Both the position numbers and the translations under genes were made by a program. Of a stretch of 33,328 nucleotides of DNA, positions 68-17,340 are shown one piece after another (the first letter of the stretch is position 1; each line of letters begins with the position of its first letter). This DNA is from Alphaproteobacteria bacterium (lineage in GTDB: Bacteria > Pseudomonadota > Alphaproteobacteria > Geminicoccales > Geminicoccaceae): contig JALUAG010000103.1 of NCBI GenBank assembly GCA_027045875.1, forward strand, positions 1 to 33,328, written 5' to 3'. Below the pieces are notes generated by a model. The model did not search any database. It was not told the origin of the DNA and saw only the letters and a program-made list of their open reading frames with translations.

Positions 68-2131
68 ATGATCGTCCCCTTCCGCCAGGCCGTGTCCGCC
101 ACCCCGTCACCTCCGCCGGCGCCGGCGACGCGCCGGCGGTGGTGGACGGCGGCGGAGCTGGCGGCGCTGGGTGTGGAGGGATGGCCGAAAACGCGCTGGA
201 ACATGTCCCGACGGCTGGCGGACCTTCCGCGTCGCACCCGCCGCGACGGTGCGCATCTCTACCGCATCGACGATCTGCCGGCGCCGCTGCGGGAGGCGGC
301 GCTGGCGGTGTCGGCGGCGGACGATCCCGCGCCGGCGGGCGAGGGCATCGACGGGGCCGATCCCGCCGATCGTCGGGCGGCGGCGCGGCTGGCGCTGCTG
401 GCCGAGGTCGACCGGCTGGCGCGGTCGCTGGGCAGTATCGTGCTGGCGCGCCGGAATCTCGTGGAAACCGTGCGCACCGGCAACGACCCGAGGCTCGCCG
501 CGCTCGCCCGCGAGGCCATGGCCCGCCGCCGGCGGCTGTCGGTGCGCACGCTCGAGCGCTGGGCGGAGCATCGCGACGATCCGGCGATGCTGGAGGTGCA
601 CGGGCGGGCGGCCGGCGTGCCGGACTGGCTGGACCCGTTCCTGGCGATCTGGTCGCGGCCGTCGAAGCCGAGCGTCGCCTTCTCCTACGAGACGCTGCGG
701 CGGCAGCGTCCCGATCTCGCTCTGCCGAGCGTGCGCACGGTGCAGCGGACGGTCGCGCGTCTGGGTGCGGTGACCCGTGCCCGCGGCCGCATGGGGCCGC
801 GCGAGCTGAAGACGGTGCGGCCCTACATCGCGCGCGATTTCCGCGAGCTGGAGCCGGCGGACGTCTACATCGCCGACGGCCACACCCACGATCAGCTGGT
901 GCTCCATCCGATCACCGGCAAACCGTTCCGGCCGGAGATCATCGCCGTCGTCGACGTCGCCACCCGGCGCTGCGTCGGCTGGTCGACGGGCATCGCCGAG
1001 AGCGCCTGGCTGGTGGCCGACGCGCTGCGGCACGCCTGCGGCACGGCGGTTCCCGCGGTGTTCTACACCGACCGCGGCAGCGGCTTCTGCAACATGCACA
1101 TGGACGATCCCGCGACCGGCGTGCTGGCGAGGCTGGGGATCCGCCACGAGACGAGCCTGCCCTACAACAGCCAGGCGCGGGGCGTGGTCGAGCGGTTCCA
1201 CGCCTCCTGCTGGATCCGCGGCGCGCGGCTGCACGCCGGCTACGTCGGCCGGGACATGGACCCGGAGGCCCGAAAGCGCGTCGACCGTGCGGTCAAGCGC
1301 GATCTCTGGGTACGCGGGACGACGGATCTGGTGCCCTCCTGGCGGGCCTTCGTCGCCTGGTGCGATGAGCAGGTGCGGGCCTACAACGCGCGGCCGCACG
1401 GATCTCTGCCGCGGATCGTCGATCCGGCGACCGGCCGCCGGCGGCACATGACGCCGGACGAGGCCTGGCGGGACGCCACGTCGAGGGGCTTCGTGCCGGA
1501 GGTTCCGGCGGCGCGGGAGCTGGACGCGCTGTTCCGCCCGCACGTCGAGCGCACGGTGCGGCGCGGCTGCGTCCAGCTGTTCGACGGCACCTACTTCTCG
1601 CGGGATCTGGAGGAATGGCACGGGCGGCGGGTACTGGTCGCCTACGACGTGCACGATCCGAAGACGGTCTGGGTGTCGGACGGCGAGGGCCGGCGGATCT
1701 GCACCGCCGAGCTCGACGGCAACCTCGTCCCCTACATGCCGAAGAACCGCATCGAGGCGGCGCGCGAGGCCCACGCCCAGGCGCGCCTGGCACGGCTCGA
1801 ACGGCGCGCGAAGGACGTTCGAGCGGAGCTCGGGTGCGCCTCGGAGATCGTGCCGATGCCGGCCGAGAGCGATCCCGAGCGTCGCCGCGAGATCGTCCGG
1901 TCCTTCGAACCCGCGGACGAACCCGAGGAGACGAGGACGGAGCGTTACCGGCGCTGGCGGACGATCGACCGCCGGCTGCGCCGGGGCGACGAGGTGCCGG
2001 ACGAGGATGCGCGCTGGCACGCGATCTGGCCGGAGACGCCCGAGGGGCGGAACATGCTGCTTCTGGTCGAGGAGTTCGGCGAGGAGCTGGTGTGCTGGGA
2101 GAGGAGATGCGCTACAGCATCGCACCGGTGA
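68..2131 (+). CDS. muA: Mu-type DDE transposase A
   Basis: The 687-residue protein, close to the 663 of Mu A, catalyses strand transfer at the phage ends for integration and replicative transposition. An N-terminal MuA-type DNA-binding region is seen at about residues 23-75 (RWWTAAELAALGVEG, then a basic segment). A second helix-turn-helix region lies at about 100-250. The integrase/transposase core follows, with D270 in YIADGHTH, D335 in FYTDRGSGF and E375 in GVVERF, matching the DDE triad of Mu A (D269, D336, E392 from family knowledge). A Mu transposase C-terminal beta-barrel region lies near 500-570 (RGCVQLFDGTYFSRDL), followed by a charged tail that in Mu contacts B. The ATG at 68 gives the complete N-terminal domain. 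The 3' end overlaps the B gene by 25 bases, implying coupled translation. Confidence 0.96.
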   Translation: MIVPFRQAVSATPSPPPAPATRRRWWTAAELAALGVEGWPKTRWNMSRRLADLPRRTRRDGAHLYRIDDLPAPLREAALAVSAADDPAPAGEGIDGADPADRRAAARLALLAEVDRLARSLGSIVLARRNLVETVRTGNDPRLAALAREAMARRRRLSVRTLERWAEHRDDPAMLEVHGRAAGVPDWLDPFLAIWSRPSKPSVAFSYETLRRQRPDLALPSVRTVQRTVARLGAVTRARGRMGPRELKTVRPYIARDFRELEPADVYIADGHTHDQLVLHPITGKPFRPEIIAVVDVATRRCVGWSTGIAESAWLVADALRHACGTAVPAVFYTDRGSGFCNMHMDDPATGVLARLGIRHETSLPYNSQARGVVERFHASCWIRGARLHAGYVGRDMDPEARKRVDRAVKRDLWVRGTTDLVPSWRAFVAWCDEQVRAYNARPHGSLPRIVDPATGRRRHMTPDEAWRDATSRGFVPEVPAARELDALFRPHVERTVRRGCVQLFDGTYFSRDLEEWHGRRVLVAYDVHDPKTVWVSDGEGRRICTAELDGNLVPYMPKNRIEAAREAHAQARLARLERRAKDVRAELGCASEIVPMPAESDPERRREIVRSFEPADEPEETRTERYRRWRTIDRRLRRGDEVPDEDARWHAIWPETPEGRNMLLLVEEFGEELVCWERRCATASHR

Positions 2132-6174: not shown

Positions 6175-6452
6175 GACGGAAGAAGCGGGCCCGCGCACCG
6201 CAGACGCGCTTCGCCATTCTGTGGCCGGATCGTCCCCACGGCGAGCGGATCGAGGTTCTCGAGGTGTCGACGGCCGCCGATGCACTGGCCCGGGCACGGC
6301 CGGACGGCAGTGTGTTCGAGCTGCCGAGCAACACCGCGCAGGTGATCCATCTCCTGACGCGGCCGCCCGCGGAAGTCGCACGCAGGGACGCACCGGAGGC
6401 GCAGCGCATGCTCCTGAAATACGGCCGGCCCGTGACCGCGGAGGAAGCATGA
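6171..6452 (+). CDS. hypothetical early/middle protein
   Basis: This 93-residue protein starts with a very basic stretch (RRKKRARAPQTR) followed by a mixed alpha/beta segment (RFAILWPDRPHGERIEVLEV) and a charged helix. No family is recognised. Overlaps with both neighbours tie it to the replication-type gene before it and the endolysin after it. Confidence 0.7.
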   Translation: MRRKKRARAPQTRFAILWPDRPHGERIEVLEVSTAADALARARPDGSVFELPSNTAQVIHLLTRPPAEVARRDAPEAQRMLLKYGRPVTAEEA

Positions 6453-6970
6453 GCGACGACGCCGACGGCCTGGTGCTGGCCATGGCCTCCGAGCTGGTGC
6501 GCCTCCACGAGGGCTGGCGCCAGCGGGCCTACGACGATGCCACCGGCGAGCCCTTGCGGCCCGGCCATACCCTGGTGGGCAATCCTACCGTCGGCTGGGG
6601 TCGGAACCTGCGGGACGTCGGCATCCGCCGGCACGAGGCCGAGATCCTGCTGGCGGAGGACCTGAAGGAGGCGATTGCGCGGGCCCGTGCTTTCGCGGGC
6701 CGGGCGTGGGATGGCCTGTCCGCCGAACGCCGCGCGGTGCTGACCGACATGGCGTTCAACCTCGGCGGCAGGCCGAGCTCCTTCCGCCGCCTGCGCGCGG
6801 CCATCGAGACCGGCGACTTCGAGTCGGCGGCCCGGGAGATGCTGGATTCCCGCTGGGCGCGCCAGGTCGGCCGCCGGGCGCAGACGCTGGCCGCGATGAT
6901 GCGCGGCGGCGAACACGTTACCGTCGCCTACGCGACCGGCACGGGTGCGGCGATCGTACGGAGAGGGTGA
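6449..6970 (+). CDS. GH24-type endolysin (T4/P22-like muramidase)
   Basis: The 173-residue protein cleaves the glycan backbone of peptidoglycan at lysis. It has the phage lysozyme signature LHEGWRQRAYDD followed by TVGWGRNL. E21 is the expected catalytic acid, D29/D30 the aspartate position and T47 the threonine of the Glu-Asp-Thr triad. A typical GH24 core helix VLTDMAFNLGG and the C-terminal segment SRWARQVGRRAQTLA complete the family pattern. No signal peptide is present, so release should depend on a holin, and two small membrane proteins follow within 450 bases. The gene lies upstream of gemA and mor, outside the late block. Confidence 0.9.
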   Translation: MSDDADGLVLAMASELVRLHEGWRQRAYDDATGEPLRPGHTLVGNPTVGWGRNLRDVGIRRHEAEILLAEDLKEAIARARAFAGRAWDGLSAERRAVLTDMAFNLGGRPSSFRRLRAAIETGDFESAAREMLDSRWARQVGRRAQTLAAMMRGGEHVTVAYATGTGAAIVRRG

Positions 6971-6971
6971 C

Positions 6972-7241
6972 ATGGACGAGCTTGTAGAGATGGCCCGCCT
7001 GCTCGAGCGCATGGCGAGCAAACTGCGCCGCATGGAGAAGCGCATCGCCGAGCTGGAAAGACGGACGCCGGTGATGCCGATTCCGTTCCCCTATCCGATT
7101 CCGTCCCCTCACCCGGTTCCGTTGCCCGCGCGCCGGCGCGAATATGATTTCGGCGATCCGTGGCCACCGGTTCCGCAGCCACAGCCGTATTGGATCGGCC
7201 CGACGATCTGCCGCTCGCGGCTGCAGGGAGAATGCCGATGA
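6972..7241 (+). CDS. small coiled-coil protein with proline-rich tail
   Basis: The 89-residue protein has an N-terminal heptad-type helix (LVEMARLLERMASKLRRME, then KRIAELER) and then a run of alternating prolines and hydrophobic residues (PIPFPYPIPSPHPVPLP) continuing to PVPQPQPYW. It has no membrane helix. The function is unknown. Its place between the endolysin and two one-helix membrane proteins makes a lysis-related or regulatory part possible. The ATG begins one base after the endolysin stop, and its stop overlaps the next ATG. Confidence 0.65.
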   Translation: MDELVEMARLLERMASKLRRMEKRIAELERRTPVMPIPFPYPIPSPHPVPLPARRREYDFGDPWPPVPQPQPYWIGPTICRSRLQGECR

Positions 7242-11774: not shown

Positions 11775-13219
11775 GGCCTGTCTTCCGGGAGGTGGCGCCG
11801 CCCGAGGCCTATGCGCCCGTGCGCGGCTTTCTCGAGCCCCTGCGTCAGCCCCAGGACAGGATCATCGCCGCCCGGGGCTACGATTTCACCGCCTACGAGG
11901 AGATCCTGCGCGACGACCAGGTGCGGGCGACGTTCCAGCAGCGGCGGCTGGCGGTGGTCTCCCGCGAGCTCGTCGTCGAGGCCGGCGGCAATCGCGCGAT
12001 CGACCGGCAGGCGGCGGATTTCCTGCGGGAGCAGATCGAGGCCCTGCCGTTCGACGACATCACGGACAAGATGCTCTACGGCACCTTCTTCGGCTGGTCG
12101 GTGGCCGAGCTCCTGTGGTCGCGCCAGGGCCGGTGGATCGGCATCGATGCCGTCAAGGTCCGGAAGCGGCAGTATTTCCGCATCGACCTGGATGGCAGGC
12201 TGCGGCTGGTGACGGCCGCCAGCCCGCAGGGCCAGCTGCTGCCGGAGCGCAAGTTCTGGTGGTTCCAGATCGGCGGCGATACCGACGACGATCCCTACGG
12301 CCTCGGCCTCGCGCCGCATCTCTACTGGCCCGTCTGGTTCAAGCGGAACGGGCTCAAGTTCTGGCTCATCTTTCTGGAGAAGTTCGGCGCGCCCACGGCG
12401 GTCGGGAAATACCCGAAATCCGCCAACGACGACGAAAAGACCAGGCTGCGCGAGGCGCTGCAGGCGATCCAGACGGAGGCGACGATCGAGGTGCCGGAAG
12501 GGTTCGAGGTGAGGCTGCTCGAGGCGGTGCGCGGCGGCAACGCGACCTACCGCGAGTTCATCGCGGCGATGGACGCGGCGATCTCGAAGGTCGTGCTGAG
12601 CCAGACCATGACCACCGACCCCGGCTCCTCGCGGGCGCAGGCCGAGGTGCACATGGACGTGCGCCAGGAGGTGGTGAAAGCCGATTCGGACCTGATCTGC
12701 GGCAGCTTCAACGGCCAGGTGGCGAAATGGCTCACCGAGTGGAACTTCCCCGGCGCACGCACACCGAAGATCTGGCGGCGGGTCGAGGACGATCCGGACC
12801 TCGAGGCGATCGCGCGGCGCGACCGCATCATCCTGGAGCTCGGCTACCGACCCACCGAAACCTACATCCGCGAGACCTACGGCGAGGGCTACGAGCCCGT
12901 TTCGCCGGCGACGCAGCAGCAGCCTCCCGCGCTTTCCGAAGGGCATGCCTGTCCGCATTGCGGCGCGCTCGCCGAAGCGCCCTCCCGGGACGCGCTCGAC
13001 GGCCTCGCCGACGACGCGCTCGACGGCTGGGAGCCGCTGATCGCGCCGCAGATGGAAGCGATCCTCCGTTTCATGGAAGACGCGAGCAGCCTCGACGAGC
13101 TGCGGGCACGGCTCGGCGAAGTGCTGCCCGCGCTCGAGAACCGGGCCGTCGTGGAGCGGCTGTTCCGGGCCCGCCTGGCCGCGCGGCTGGCCGGCGAGAC
13201 GGGGGCGGAGATCCGCTGA
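11771..13219 (+). CDS. portal protein (Mu gp29, DUF935)
   Basis: The 482-residue protein forms the dodecameric portal at the head vertex. Recognised DUF935 segments include the opening around LRQPQDRIIAARGYDF, DDQVRATFQQRRLAVVSRE, the motif MLYGTFFGWSVAELLW, FEKFG-like FLEKFGAPTAVGKYP, and QTMTTDPGSSRAQAEVH. Length agrees with Mu gp29 (about 512). The C-terminal 90 residues hold a CPHCG pair of cysteines. The start overlaps the terminase stop, and the minor head gene begins at the very next base after its stop. Confidence 0.93.
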   Translation: MRPVFREVAPPEAYAPVRGFLEPLRQPQDRIIAARGYDFTAYEEILRDDQVRATFQQRRLAVVSRELVVEAGGNRAIDRQAADFLREQIEALPFDDITDKMLYGTFFGWSVAELLWSRQGRWIGIDAVKVRKRQYFRIDLDGRLRLVTAASPQGQLLPERKFWWFQIGGDTDDDPYGLGLAPHLYWPVWFKRNGLKFWLIFLEKFGAPTAVGKYPKSANDDEKTRLREALQAIQTEATIEVPEGFEVRLLEAVRGGNATYREFIAAMDAAISKVVLSQTMTTDPGSSRAQAEVHMDVRQEVVKADSDLICGSFNGQVAKWLTEWNFPGARTPKIWRRVEDDPDLEAIARRDRIILELGYRPTETYIRETYGEGYEPVSPATQQQPPALSEGHACPHCGALAEAPSRDALDGLADDALDGWEPLIAPQMEAILRFMEDASSLDELRARLGEVLPALENRAVVERLFRARLAARLAGETGAEIR

Positions 13220-14395
13220 ATGGCGATCCGGCTGCGGGCGCTGCCGGCGGCGGAGGCCGTCGCTTTCTTCCGCCGGAAGTTCCCGCTGCGGAGCTTCGAC
13301 TTCCGCGACGTCGAGGCGGAGGAGCACGCCGTCGCCTTCACCATGGCCAAGGCGATGCAGCTCGACGTGCTGCGCACCGTGCAGGAGGAGCTCGACCGCC
13401 AACTCCGCGAGGGACCGGATCTGCGCGCCTTCCGCGCGAATCTGGAACCGCGATTGCGCGCGCTGGGCTGGTGGGGGCGCCGGAAACGCGTCGATCCGCT
13501 CACCGGCGAGGAGCGCACGGTGACGCTGGGCACGCCGCGCCGCCTGGAGACCATCTTCCGGACCAACGTCCGCACGGCGTACGCGGCCGGGTCCTGGGAA
13601 CGCCAGAGGCGCCTGGCCGAACGCGCGCCCTGGCTGCTCTACGACGCCGTGCTCGACAGCCGCACGCGGCCGAAGCACCGGGAGTGGGACGGCACCGTGC
13701 TGCGCTGGGACGATCCCTGGTGGGGCACGCATTATCCGCCGAACGGATGGAACTGCCGCTGCTCGGTGATCCAGCTCGACGACGCCGATCTGCGCGAGCG
13801 GGGCCTGTCGCCCGGCGTGGCGCCGCACGAGACCGCGCGGCGGTGGGTGAACCCGCGAACCGGACGGGTGCGGGACGTGCCGGAAGGTGTCGACCCCGCC
13901 TGGGCGTATCACGTCGGCCGCGCCGCCGAGCGCCAGCCGCTCGAGGTGCTCGGCGACCGGGTCGAGCGGCTGCCGGAAGCGCTCGCCAGGATGGCCGTCG
14001 AGGACATCCTGCGGTCACGGATCTTCGAGGATTTCAGCGCCGGCCGCTTGGCCGGCTGGCTGCCGGTGGCGGTTCTGCCGCGGGATCTCCGGGAAGCGCT
14101 CGGGGTCCGCACCAGGACGGTGCGCATGAGCCGCGAGACCTTGCAGAAGCAGCAGGCGAGCCACCCCGATCTCACACCGTCGGACTATCTTCTGGTACAG
14201 GCGCTCGTCGACGGCGGATCGGTGTGGAAGGAAGGCTCACGTCATCTTTCGGCGATCTTGGGAATCAATGGCAGGCTTTGGCATGCAGTGGTGAAGCGCA
14301 CGCGGGACCGCACCGAAGCGATCCTCGTCACTCATCATCGCGCGTCACCGAAAAACATTCGCCGCGCCGAAAGGCGCGGCAAGAAGCTTCGTTGA
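13220..14395 (+). CDS. minor head protein (Mu gp30/F family) with C-terminal nuclease-like domain
   Basis: The 391-residue protein carries the Mu F/SPP1 gp7 head morphogenesis domain at about residues 1-270: AVAFFRRKFPL at the start, ETIFRTNVRTAYAAGSWER, DSRTRPKHREWDGT, and the closing PPNGWNCRCSV. The last 90 residues (about 300-391), with MSRETLQKQQASHPDLTP, a variable core and a terminal ILVTHHRASPKNIRRAERR, resemble the barnase/EndoU/colicin-like nuclease domains (PBECR group) attached to some phage head proteins. That part might be delivered with the DNA. A perfect 8-bp hairpin GCCGCGCC-GAAA-GGCGCGGC (14361-14380) lies within the last codons. Confidence 0.88.
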   Translation: MAIRLRALPAAEAVAFFRRKFPLRSFDFRDVEAEEHAVAFTMAKAMQLDVLRTVQEELDRQLREGPDLRAFRANLEPRLRALGWWGRRKRVDPLTGEERTVTLGTPRRLETIFRTNVRTAYAAGSWERQRRLAERAPWLLYDAVLDSRTRPKHREWDGTVLRWDDPWWGTHYPPNGWNCRCSVIQLDDADLRERGLSPGVAPHETARRWVNPRTGRVRDVPEGVDPAWAYHVGRAAERQPLEVLGDRVERLPEALARMAVEDILRSRIFEDFSAGRLAGWLPVAVLPRDLREALGVRTRTVRMSRETLQKQQASHPDLTPSDYLLVQALVDGGSVWKEGSRHLSAILGINGRLWHAVVKRTRDRTEAILVTHHRASPKNIRRAERRGKKLR

Positions 14396-14397
14396 TC

Positions 14398-14469
14398 GGG
14401 CACCCGGGGGGCCGAGATACACCCCCGCGGAGCCGCAGCCCCGGCTACCCGGATCTGACTCGGGTGCCC
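14398..14469 (+). repeat. structured repeat unit 1 (three-way junction, putative RNA element)
   Basis: The unit is 72 bases. Its closing stem is GGGCACCCG (14398-14406) with CGGGTGCCC (14461-14469). Inside are a second stem GGGGG (14407-14411) with CCCCC (14422-14426) over a variable loop, and a third stem AGCCG (14431-14435) with CGGCT (14442-14446) around a CAGCCC loop. GCGG joins stems two and three, and ACCCGGATCTGACT leads back to the closing stem. It starts two bases after the gp30 stop codon. The same arrangement recurs twice. Confidence 0.75.
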
Positions 14470-14503
14470 TCCACAATATGGCCGCTGCCCGGCTTCCTGT
14501 AAA

Positions 14504-14572
14504 GGCGCCGGGGGGCCGCTCTTTCACCCCCGCGGAGCCGCAGCCCCGGCTGAGCGGATCTGACTCGGCGCC
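14504..14572 (+). repeat. structured repeat unit 2
   Basis: This copy is 69 bases. Its closing stem is GGCGCCG (14504-14510) with CGGCGCC (14566-14572): compared with units 1 and 3, an A-T pair has become G-C and one C-G pair has been lost on both sides, so pairing is kept. The inner stems GGGGG/CCCCC (14511-14515, 14527-14531) and AGCCG/CGGCT (14536-14540, 14547-14551) and the GGATCTGACT strand are conserved, while the loop of the second stem differs. A 34-base unrelated spacer separates it from unit 1. Confidence 0.75.
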
Positions 14573-14607
14573 CATGCCAATCTGACACACGTGCCTCGGC
14601 TGTTGAA

Positions 14608-14679
14608 GGGCACCCGGGGGGCCGGTGTCACCCCCGCGGAGCCGCAGCCCCGGCTAACCGTACTGTGACTCGGGTGCCC
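14608..14679 (+). repeat. structured repeat unit 3
   Basis: This copy is 72 bases and has the same closing stem as unit 1 (14608-14616 with 14671-14679). The second stem is 14617-14621 with 14631-14635 over a shorter loop; the third stem is 14640-14644 with 14651-14655 around the unchanged CAGCCC loop. The returning strand differs most from the others (AACCGTACTGTGACT). A 35-base unrelated spacer separates it from unit 2. Confidence 0.75.
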
Positions 14680-14730
14680 GGGCGCATTCTCGCTTCTCCG
14701 AGGGCCGAGGTAAATCCCGGAAGGGTCGGA

Positions 14731-14882
14731 TTTTTGTTTAAATGATTGAGTTTACGACGAAAAGTGCCGTTCGGACCCAGCGTGCGTGTCGTCCGCGTGG
14801 AAGCCCGGCTCCGTAGGAGCCCCGTAGACGGCCGATTCGCATGCCGGACGACCTTCGGTACCCGAAAATCCTTAAACAAAAA
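14731..14882. repeat. AT-rich 11-bp inverted repeat enclosing about 130 bases
   Basis: TTTTTGTTTAA at 14731-14741 is the exact reverse complement of TTAAACAAAAA at 14872-14882. GTTTA recurs at 14750-14754 and TTAAAC at 14884-14889. The enclosed bases include the hairpin GGCTCC-GTA-GGAGCC (14807-14821). These are the most AT-rich bases of an otherwise very GC-rich window. They could be a promoter/activator region, the closing stem of an RNA, or the ends of a small inserted element. Confidence 0.5.
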
Positions 14883-15022
14883 ATTAAACAGGTTTGCGGC
14901 CCGTCTGGGGGCATTCCGGCACCGCTTCCTCGGCCGTGGGGTGGCCCCCGCCGGATCGGACGGCGCCCGACCGCGACCATCGTCGCCTTCGGCCGCATGC
15001 GCGGGCGTGAAACATCGGCACC

Positions 15023-16404: not shown

Positions 16405-17340
16405 ATGACCACCGCGCCGTTTCCCGTCGATCCCGTCCTCGTCGGCATCACCCTCGCCTACCGCAATCCGCGCTACATCGCCGACGAGGTCCTGCCCCGC
16501 GTGCCCGTCGGCCGCGAGGAGTTCAAATACTGGAAGTACCCGGAGGACGAAGCGTTCCGGGTGCCGGACACCAGGGTCGGCCGGCGCTCGCGCCCCAACG
16601 AGATCGTCCTGACCGCCACCGAGAGCACGGCCTCGACCGAGGATTACGGGCTCGAGGATGCGGTGCCCAACGACGACATCAGGAACGCGCCCGCCAACCA
16701 CAGCCCGGTCGACCGGGCGACCGTGCAGCTGACCGAATACATCCTGATCGACCGCGAGCAGCGGGTCGCCAACCTCGTCTTCAACAGCTCGTCCTACGCC
16801 TCCGCCAACGTCACCACCCTGTCCGGCACCTCGCAATGGTCGGATCAGGCCAACTCCGACCCGGTGGACGCCATCACCGGGGCGCTCGACGTGCCGCTGG
16901 TGCGGCCGAACATCATGGTGCTCGGCCGGGCGGTCTGGACCAAGCTGCGGACCCATCCGAAGGTCGTGGCCGCGGTCAAGCCCGCCGGCGCCCGCGAGGC
17001 TTCGGGCGTGGCCATGCGCCAGGCCGTGGCCGAGCTCTTCGAGCTCGAGGAGGTCCTGGTCGGCGAGGCCTGGATCAACACCGCGAAGAAGGGCCAGGCG
17101 GCCTCGATCAGCCGCGTCTGGGGCAAGCACTGTGCACTGCTGTTCCGCGACCGCACGGCGGACACCCGCTCCGGTCTGACCTTCGGCTTCACCGCGCAGT
17201 TCGGCAGCCGCATCGCCGGCACCAGGCCCGATCCCGATATCGGTCTCAGGGGCGGCGTCCGCGTCCGGGTCGGCGAGTCGCTCAAGGAACTCGTGATCGC
17301 CAACCAGGCCGGATACCTGTTCCAGAACGCGGTGGCGTGA
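16405..17340 (+). CDS. major capsid protein (HK97-fold type, not the classic Mu gpT sequence)
   Basis: The 311-residue protein belongs to a capsid family found in several Mu-like and other prophages, recognised by VDPVLVGITLAYRNPRYIAD, VPVGREEFKYWKY, PDTRVGRRSRPNEI, NLVFNSSSYASANVTTLSG, the segment VLGRAVWTKLRTHPKVV, and the end VRVGESLKELVIANQAGY. It differs from the Mu T protein itself, so the head is only partly Mu-derived. Position after decoration protein and before head completion genes fits. The start follows an AGGGATG ribosome-type sequence. Confidence 0.9.
   Translation: MTTAPFPVDPVLVGITLAYRNPRYIADEVLPRVPVGREEFKYWKYPEDEAFRVPDTRVGRRSRPNEIVLTATESTASTEDYGLEDAVPNDDIRNAPANHSPVDRATVQLTEYILIDREQRVANLVFNSSSYASANVTTLSGTSQWSDQANSDPVDAITGALDVPLVRPNIMVLGRAVWTKLRTHPKVVAAVKPAGAREASGVAMRQAVAELFELEEVLVGEAWINTAKKGQAASISRVWGKHCALLFRDRTADTRSGLTFGFTAQFGSRIAGTRPDPDIGLRGGVRVRVGESLKELVIANQAGYLFQNAVA

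Follow-up and report, generated by a model that had tools for sequence, protein, structure and literature searches.

The window analysed here, the whole 33,328-nucleotide stretch of contig JALUAG010000103.1 (assembly GCA_027045875.1) from an alphaproteobacterium of the family Geminicoccaceae, contains a Mu-like prophage, as revealed by Pfam matches to a Mu-type transposase, Phage_Mu_F and Phage_cap_E (Table 1). The open reading frames (ORFs) before and behind the minor head protein gene F, called portal and protease, had no Pfam match, and these labels were given by position. Three nucleotides past the end of F lies an array of three related units, none of which overlaps the F coding region. 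The original prediction had described three copies of 72, 69 and 72 nt divided by unrelated spacers, and this description held, with a length of 69–71 nt for unit 2. The units start 105 and 104 nt apart, and the inter-unit stretches of 34 and 34 nt share no mutual sequence likeness (the 35 nt past unit 3 may be counted as a third spacer). Unit 1 was similar to unit 3 (E 2.5e-19) and unit 2 (E 7.1e-14), and its next best place in the 3.5-Mb genome reached only E 0.063, i.e. no comparable copy exists elsewhere; blastn found no further copy of the array in 30 other genomes of the same family. A CRISPR-like array was ruled out, since the spacers read as promoters, as was a repeated minus-strand protein, since the start-to-start distances break the frame. 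The 340 nt separating the array from the next gene contain an imperfect AT-rich inverted repeat (14730–14747 and 14867–14884) with an 11-bp perfect core, TTTTTGTTTAA.

Table 1 Features of the window discussed in the text (structures, promoters and terminator are predictions).
Feature	Position	Strand	Details
Mu-type transposase	68–2131		Pfam match
Mu-F minor head protein gene	13220–14395	+	391 aa; Phage_Mu_F at residues 53–184
F C-terminal domain	14000–14386	+	residues 261–389; predicted BECR/BrnT/RelE-like RNase-toxin fold; proposed RNA partner
Terminator-like hairpin and T run	14359–14382	-	after unit 1, within F gene end
RNA unit 1	14398–14469	-	72 nt; P1 GGGCACCCG/CGGGUGCCC, pseudoknot CCGGG/CUCGG, hairpin AGCCG/CGGCU, P2 GGGGG/CCCCC
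Promoter-like spacer of unit 1	14470–14503	-	TTTACA, 17 nt, CATATT, 5 nt to unit
RNA unit 2	14503–14573 (about)	-	69–71 nt; P1 one pair shorter, outer G·U; pseudoknot CCGCUC/GAGCGG
Promoter-like spacer of unit 2	14574–14607	-	TTCAAC, 17 nt, CAGATT, 5 nt; weaker match
RNA unit 3	14608–14679	-	72 nt; pseudoknot CGGU/ACCG
Promoter-like stretch before unit 3	14680–14714	-	TTTACC, 17 nt, GAGAAT, 6 nt; weaker match
Phage_cap_E	16405–17340		Pfam match

Comparison of the three units pointed to a common fold, in which a closing stem (P1) carries a second stem (P2) directly on its 3' arm, accompanied by a hairpin and by a pseudoknot that involves the loop of P2. P1 was compensatory among the units: an A-U pair is replaced by G-C, and one pair is dropped from both arms together, as originally predicted; the outer pair of P1 in unit 2, which is G·U if read on the minus strand, had been missed. 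The loop of the second stem had been taken to vary freely, whereas it pairs with the variable stretch behind P1 to form the pseudoknot, with 5, 6 and 4 pairs in units 1, 2 and 3, respectively. Folding of single units was unimpressive relative to shuffled sequences (z −0.4 to −2.6 over both strands), with energies ordinary for GC-rich sequence, and window-wide folding z-scores were modest; the case for a structured RNA therefore rests on comparison. No Rfam 15 family reached its gathering score in the window, and the E-value mode gave weak sub-gathering matches only, in line with the original view of a selected, covarying phage RNA without a known motif. Each copy is predicted to be a pseudoknotted small RNA of about 70 nt directed toward the Mu-F stop codon.

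Promoter-like boxes, G·U pairs and homologues agree in assigning the RNA to the minus strand, where it converges with F, in contrast to the plus-strand sense assumed in the original prediction. The promoter-like sequence of unit 1 was the sole match of a plain consensus scan in 3 kb (0.2 expected), and the same scan gave no match in the spacers of units 2 and 3. Promoter scores summed over the three spacers were 24 for the minus and 15 for the plus strand (shuffled mean 13.8, p 2e-4). Both of the noted non-Watson–Crick pairs, one in the pseudoknot of unit 1 and one at the P1 end of unit 2, are G·U on the minus strand and A·C on the plus strand. An attenuator between head operons, a late-mRNA processing element or a packaging signal, all of which had been considered, are unlikely for an RNA encoded on the minus strand and convergent with F.

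The search for homologues resembling the window units (class B) used R1, a covariance model built from all three. Run on loci that had been collected via the F protein, not via the RNA, it revealed RNAs of this kind in the corresponding position of other Mu-like phages. Five loci (L033, L070, L113, L082 and L103) were matched on the strand opposite F, at its stop codon; the E-values were 0.007 to 0.55 over 873 kb, a range in which place and strand carry much of the weight, and matches of similar size were located elsewhere (L069, L062, L126 and more). The five sequences diverge widely; P1, the G-A-rich start, the pseudoknot and P2 are retained, as is the hairpin in most, and by eye promoter-like boxes directly precede P1. 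Homologues with stems broken and left uncompensated had been named as an outcome that would speak against the structure, and the opposite was found: the stems of homologues are maintained by compensatory changes. L033 and L135, which share a genome, differ in this way in the pseudoknot (CCAU/AUGG vs CCUG/CAGG). L135 (G104:C306) is a second, decayed Mu-F copy in the L033 genome, and its RNA is retained with compensatory changes. A second covariance model built from eight matches (R2) added L135 and L061, and also gave a match in G404 (L390; E 9.9e-5) that is not accompanied by the domain described below. In ten class B units, delimited by eye, the pseudoknot arms matched their own partner better than those of other units (p 0.0015, or 0.02 when the window contributes a single unit).

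Other searches for class B relatives gave little. R1 on 289 genomes of the bacterial class otherwise produced weak matches (E 0.03–0.07) that were judged chance, and at the F ends of the relatives L015, L016, L021–L032 and L034–L037 it found none, L033 alone being matched. Covariance-model matches in L038–L042, L069, L126 (plus strand), L134 and L057 were rejected as chance by place, strand or lack of a promoter-like box. A descriptor scan of F ends was without discrimination when used alone (minus mean 42.0 vs plus 33.5, 83 loci), and its top row, L079, was chance-like. The exact 21-nt core and a gapped core had no match in viral contigs, blastn of the array found none in phages and five weak partial matches in plasmids, and no relative of the F protein was found in genome contigs.

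Many Mu-F genes are followed by a convergent RNA with the pattern ACACGGUG..CUCCC.GCCGUAG...GGGAG (class A), which was present in 15 loci of the set gathered via F. Searches with this pattern revealed at least 120 viral-contig stretches and at least 117 stretches of GTDB genomes; the 237 loci used below are the matches listed, and the counts are lower bounds. Organism titles, available for 80 of the 117 genome stretches and including contigs that may be misbinned, were mostly Proteobacteria and Desulfo- groups, together with Nitrospirae, Nitrospinota and Bacteroidetes, and single records came from an actinobacterium and from verrucomicrobial, lachnospiral and archaeal metagenome-assembled genomes. 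Mu-F was recognised in 144 of the 237 loci and the RNA was opposite F in all 144; relative to the F stop, the motif began between −23 and 138 nt in 134 of them and at 159 to 2222 nt in the remaining ten. One locus, L113, is class A by pattern yet was found via the class B model, linking the two classes, which are likely, though not certainly, homologous. Two class A RNAs had no blastn match in annotated phages, nor did one of them in E. coli genomes, so that these searches yielded no cultured phage with class A, and Rfam 15 gave no gathering-score match at the RNA in 14 member loci. Locus L270 carries a tandem pair of class A RNAs (6201–6456, minus strand) with identical upstream sequence. The phage contig of L089 also contains a type II hammerhead ribozyme (Hammerhead_II; 12721–12785, minus strand) and a tRNA-Val gene (12350–12425, plus strand). 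A likeness of class A to a permuted double pseudoknot of the hepatitis delta virus type was noticed only.

Covariation in class A was analyzed in an alignment of 72 rows (71 distinct), comprising 69 of 145 dereplicated sequences of similar length plus L023, L089 and L113. Pairing occurred in 88.8% of cells compared with 72.5% in shuffled controls, and 330 cells were altered on both sides, compared with 111 in shuffled and 61–159 in slid controls; the pattern fixes ACACGGUG, CUCCC and GCCGUAG, so that helices 2 and 3 cannot covary in this test, and the rows were picked for pairing of P1 and P2, not P3. All five pairs of the hairpin, which were unused in the selection, were altered on both sides, and the GGGAG partner was kept although the pattern demanded CUCCC only. 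The strand was again informative: P1 and P2 both formed in 209 of 230 loci when G·U was allowed, in 184 with A·C instead and in 166 with Watson–Crick pairs only (57–75 in shuffled sequences), so that G·U gains 43 loci and A·C 18. A −10 box lay 2–12 nt before P1 in 116 of 182 loci, most commonly at 6 nt (38–52 in shuffled sequences, 27 in a mirror control).

The RNAs at this place are not confined to classes A and B. Four loci (L102, L115, L116 and L122) have, at the F stop on the minus strand, a class C RNA with a UCGG..CCGA hairpin and GAUGAUGAG..CUAGCG, and L382 and L383 carry class D; classes C, D and X were assigned by eye. In L085 (near the F stop at 7209) and L386 (at the domain stop), the usual place on the minus strand is occupied by RNAs that resemble a cloverleaf, with a closing stem of 9 bp and a hairpin similar to a T arm. 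ARAGORN called no tRNA for the L085 element, and neither it nor the L386 element had an Rfam match.

We compared the distribution of these RNAs with that of the C-terminal domain of F, using a domain hidden Markov model (HMM) built from 21 F ends beside an RNA; the window was not among the seeds, and its F protein was matched with E 7.6e-30. With fixed criteria for the RNA (either the class A pattern or, at the F end, an R2 match of at least 19 bits), 84 F loci, 35 of them with the domain, had the RNA in 19 of 35 loci with the domain and 0 of 49 without it (p 1.2e-9); this set includes the duplicates L122/L123, L079/L080 and L110/L112, scores class C as RNA-less and omits L033 and L026. Among loci that were neither seed nor window, the RNA accompanied 6 of 13 domains (p 2.8e-5). 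The 16 domain loci without RNA by these criteria include five class C loci by eye, two unclassed candidates (L054 and L118), and L019, L020 and L024 with PBECR2-type ends, two by clear Pfam match; the remaining negatives show no RNA. Conversely, an RNA-like element was seen by eye in L108, L121 and L085, which had no match to the domain HMM. A search of 398 genomes of the phylum with the domain only gave 11 places, one running off its contig. Of the ten that could be evaluated, window included, 8 had, by eye, a structured RNA on the opposite strand at the stop (7 of 9 without the window). Among the class A loci listed, the end of a domain ORF fell within −60 to 200 nt of the RNA in 153 of 237, on the opposite strand in all 153, and in three more the domain ORF was farther away. 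In L274, L290 and L327 the domain is a stand-alone ORF at the RNA, with no F detected.

The class of RNA also followed the phylogeny of the domain. With labels assigned by eye, the RNA classes required 8 changes on the domain tree (shuffled 14.8; 0 of 200 as low), class C formed one clade (100/98), and class A required 5 changes (shuffled 10.2). Of the four RNA-less domains in this alignment three are degenerate, L084 and L106 being without the K56–H61 stretch and L100 having lost H61 and K105, whereas L088 looks intact; this pattern is only suggestive. Sequence comparison supports an RNA gene that is encoded on the minus strand, contains a pseudoknot and is linked to the domain.

The structure predicted for the window domain (predicted local distance difference test score 96) had the ribonuclease (RNase) toxin BrnT as its best Foldseek match (E 2.7e-3, probability 1.00), followed by weak rows for a contact-dependent inhibition (CDI) toxin and a Salmonella toxin (0.82 each). 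VIA-align Z scores were 7.4 for BrnT, 7.3 for 7vd7, 5.1 and 5.0 for CDI toxins, 5.0 for 3ao9 (a sequence-specific ribonuclease) and 4.9 for RelE. Because the top structural rows are a run of RNase toxins, we predict for the C-terminal domain of F an RNase-toxin fold like those of BrnT, RelE and CDI toxins. The nearest solved folds are BrnT, RelE/HigB and CDI toxins; ToxN is absent from the rows shown, and a likeness to it may exist. The domain profile found no credible relative among Protein Data Bank sequences. By Pfam gathering score the window domain does not qualify for the PBECR family, and 5 of 30 related domains matched PBECR3 (best 1.4e-7). The protein has the architecture of a MuF polymorphic toxin, in which the MuF part is followed by a C-terminal extension of at least 100 aa, here ending in a domain near RNase-toxin folds by prediction. 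RNase activity has been predicted for PBECR-type domains by Iyer et al. (PMC5512222), and Jamet et al. reported C-terminal extensions of MuF, of a kind not known, in proteobacterial phages (PMC5576092).

Taken together, the predicted RNase tip, the adjoining pseudoknotted RNA gene with its own promoter, the clustering of RNA class with phylogeny and the stand-alone pairs led us to propose, with a probability of roughly 0.6, that the array encodes a convergently transcribed antitoxin (immunity) RNA against a virion-borne RNase toxin, the C-terminal domain of F. Toxins of the MuF kind are presumed to travel inside the phage head and to enter the cell along with the DNA. The window would then hold three small-RNA genes in tandem, all on the minus strand. 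Each would have a sigma-70-like promoter in the spacer that precedes it, and a terminator candidate lies in the F gene end. The RNA would be produced both in the lysogen and in lytic growth. Its binding to the RNase domain would obstruct the active site, perhaps through mimicry of the RNA substrate, and would thereby protect the producing cell from the toxin domain; three units could raise the antitoxin dose. Toxicity, packaging, binding, neutralisation and timing are parts that we infer. The cloverleaf-like RNAs of L085 and L386 suggest that substrate mimicry operates in some cases.

Several observations weigh against this proposal. On the protein side, no Foldseek match fell under E 0.001, Z values of 7–8 can be reached by chance, and the window domain had no match in Pfam (E 0.01), NCBIfam or PHROG. 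On the RNA side, spacers 2 and 3 are weak promoters, and terminator-like sites follow class A in just 13 of 207 loci (shuffled 0–2). The association is incomplete: L384 and L387 (the latter a partial match) have the domain and no RNA, as does L088, whose domain looks intact. Conserved residues predict the RNA imperfectly: K56 is missing in class C as well, and H61 in L091, L113, L130, L061, L070 and L118, all of which bear an RNA. Class B clustered weakly on the domain tree (4 changes vs 5.7 shuffled, with no more than 4 in 22 of 500 shuffles), and the window domain grouped with class C (90/82), not with class B, its own RNA class. Known type III antitoxins, moreover, sit upstream in the toxin operon. 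A common chromosomal repeat without phage link, named at the outset as a contrary outcome, is opposed by the strong association with F genes and, more precisely, with the C-terminal domain, although orphans are part of class A: no domain was recognised in 81 of the 237 loci listed, of which only 15 lie near a sequence end (<400 nt on that side). Orphans in bacterial genomes include L263, L322, L313 and others. ORFs near orphans, ten scanned at nine loci, comprised one Type ISP restriction enzyme, one Cas3 HD fragment and one integrase, the rest being housekeeping or without match. Such orphans may be host-kept immunity, relics, or a sign of another function.

Among the other explanations, an antisense regulator would pair, as a convergent RNA, with late mRNA reading through from F and cut expression of the toxin or late genes while leaving the protein untouched (type I or VIII-like). 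In its favour, the RNA gene faces the F transcript and its end coincides with the F stop codon; the window units, however, stand off the F coding region, a conserved pseudoknot would be unneeded yet the structure is kept by compensation, and orphan RNAs exist, which makes this explanation improbable. We consider it unlikely, too, that the domain is a non-toxic RNA-binding module and the RNA a packaged or head-assembly RNA resembling a packaging RNA (pRNA). The genetic linkage would be identical to that of an antitoxin, and the PBECR domain of phage Mu F has been described as inactive and proposed to bind RNA by Iyer et al. (PMC5512222), but F overlaps G in Mu, leaving no room for such an RNA, domain–RNA pairs stand alone without a detected F, and the nearest predicted folds are RNase toxins. 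Still less probable is an accessory regulatory RNA or ribozyme that occupies a variable spot of the phage genome independently of the domain. Orphans in many genomes, the hammerhead elsewhere in L089 and reports of hammerhead and twister ribozymes near Mu-like phage genes (PMC10085705) would suit such a moron, whereas the dependence on the domain (19/35 vs 0/49), the clustering of RNA class on the domain tree and the lack of a match to known ribozyme families would not. A plus-strand late-mRNA element (processing, attenuation, packaging), or a DNA element at the position of the Mu gyrase site, is very improbable. In Mu, genes G and I are separated by a gyrase cut site, a terminator and a late promoter, and the array of the window is flanked by F and the ORF that stands where I would be, yet the promoter-like boxes and G·U pairs favour the minus strand, the association tracks the F C-terminal domain, and the Mu gyrase site is behind G, not behind F.

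If the antitoxin proposal is true, an RNA family of at least 237 loci without an Rfam match gains a partner and a role, RNA antitoxins extend to BrnT/RelE-like RNases and to toxins located in the virion, and MuF toxins without an obvious immunity gene could be accounted for. What injected MuF RNases do would become directly testable, and the orphan bacterial RNAs raise the possibility of RNA-based immunity to phage toxins. A broader view, which we hold only tentatively and regard as rather doubtful, is that a branch of virion polymorphic toxins uses RNA instead of protein for immunity, that the several classes of RNA, tRNA-like cloverleaves among them, act as antidotes by mimicking the substrate and are swapped together with the toxin tip, and that bacteria of several phyla keep orphans against incoming phage toxins.

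The proposed system shares features with several known ones. MuF polymorphic toxins likewise consist of an F protein with a C-terminal toxin domain (predicted here) that is encoded behind the portal gene, but their likely immunity genes are small downstream ORFs according to Jamet et al. (PMC5576092), in contrast to the opposite-strand RNA proposed here. PBECR domains (PF18809–PF18812) are predicted RNase domains on MuF proteins, and PBECR3 is recognisable among the related domains as described above; the window domain has no Pfam match, and the available part of PMC5512222 describes no partner RNA for PBECR. Titles and abstract openings of the open-licence papers listed reported no RNA partner for MuF, BECR or PBECR2 toxins. 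AbiF/RCd22, an Abi_2 family protein with a noncoding RNA, is a phage-borne toxin neutralised by an RNA with two motifs, which parallels the neutraliser proposed here; its toxin is HEPN/Cas13-like, and its RNA is upstream, has a different motif and belongs to a lysis module (PMC12373285). In type III toxin–antitoxin systems, whose mode of action the proposed system would share, an endoribonuclease is held by pseudoknotted tandem RNA repeats (PMC5086642). Like these systems (ToxIN, CptIN and TenpIN), the window combines a proposed endoribonuclease with an RNA directly beside it that is predicted to be a pseudoknot, and its units are tandem: three in the window and two in L270 only, with a single copy in the other relatives examined, the class A pattern not being seen twice in 236 of the 237 loci listed. 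Unlike them, the proposed toxin of the window has a predicted BrnT/RelE-like fold and forms part of a head protein, the units are about 70–95 nt long versus 34–50 in type III, and the RNA is convergent, behind the toxin and under its own promoters, whereas the type III RNA is upstream in one operon with a terminator between. By gene order and predicted fold, the system is not a known type III family.
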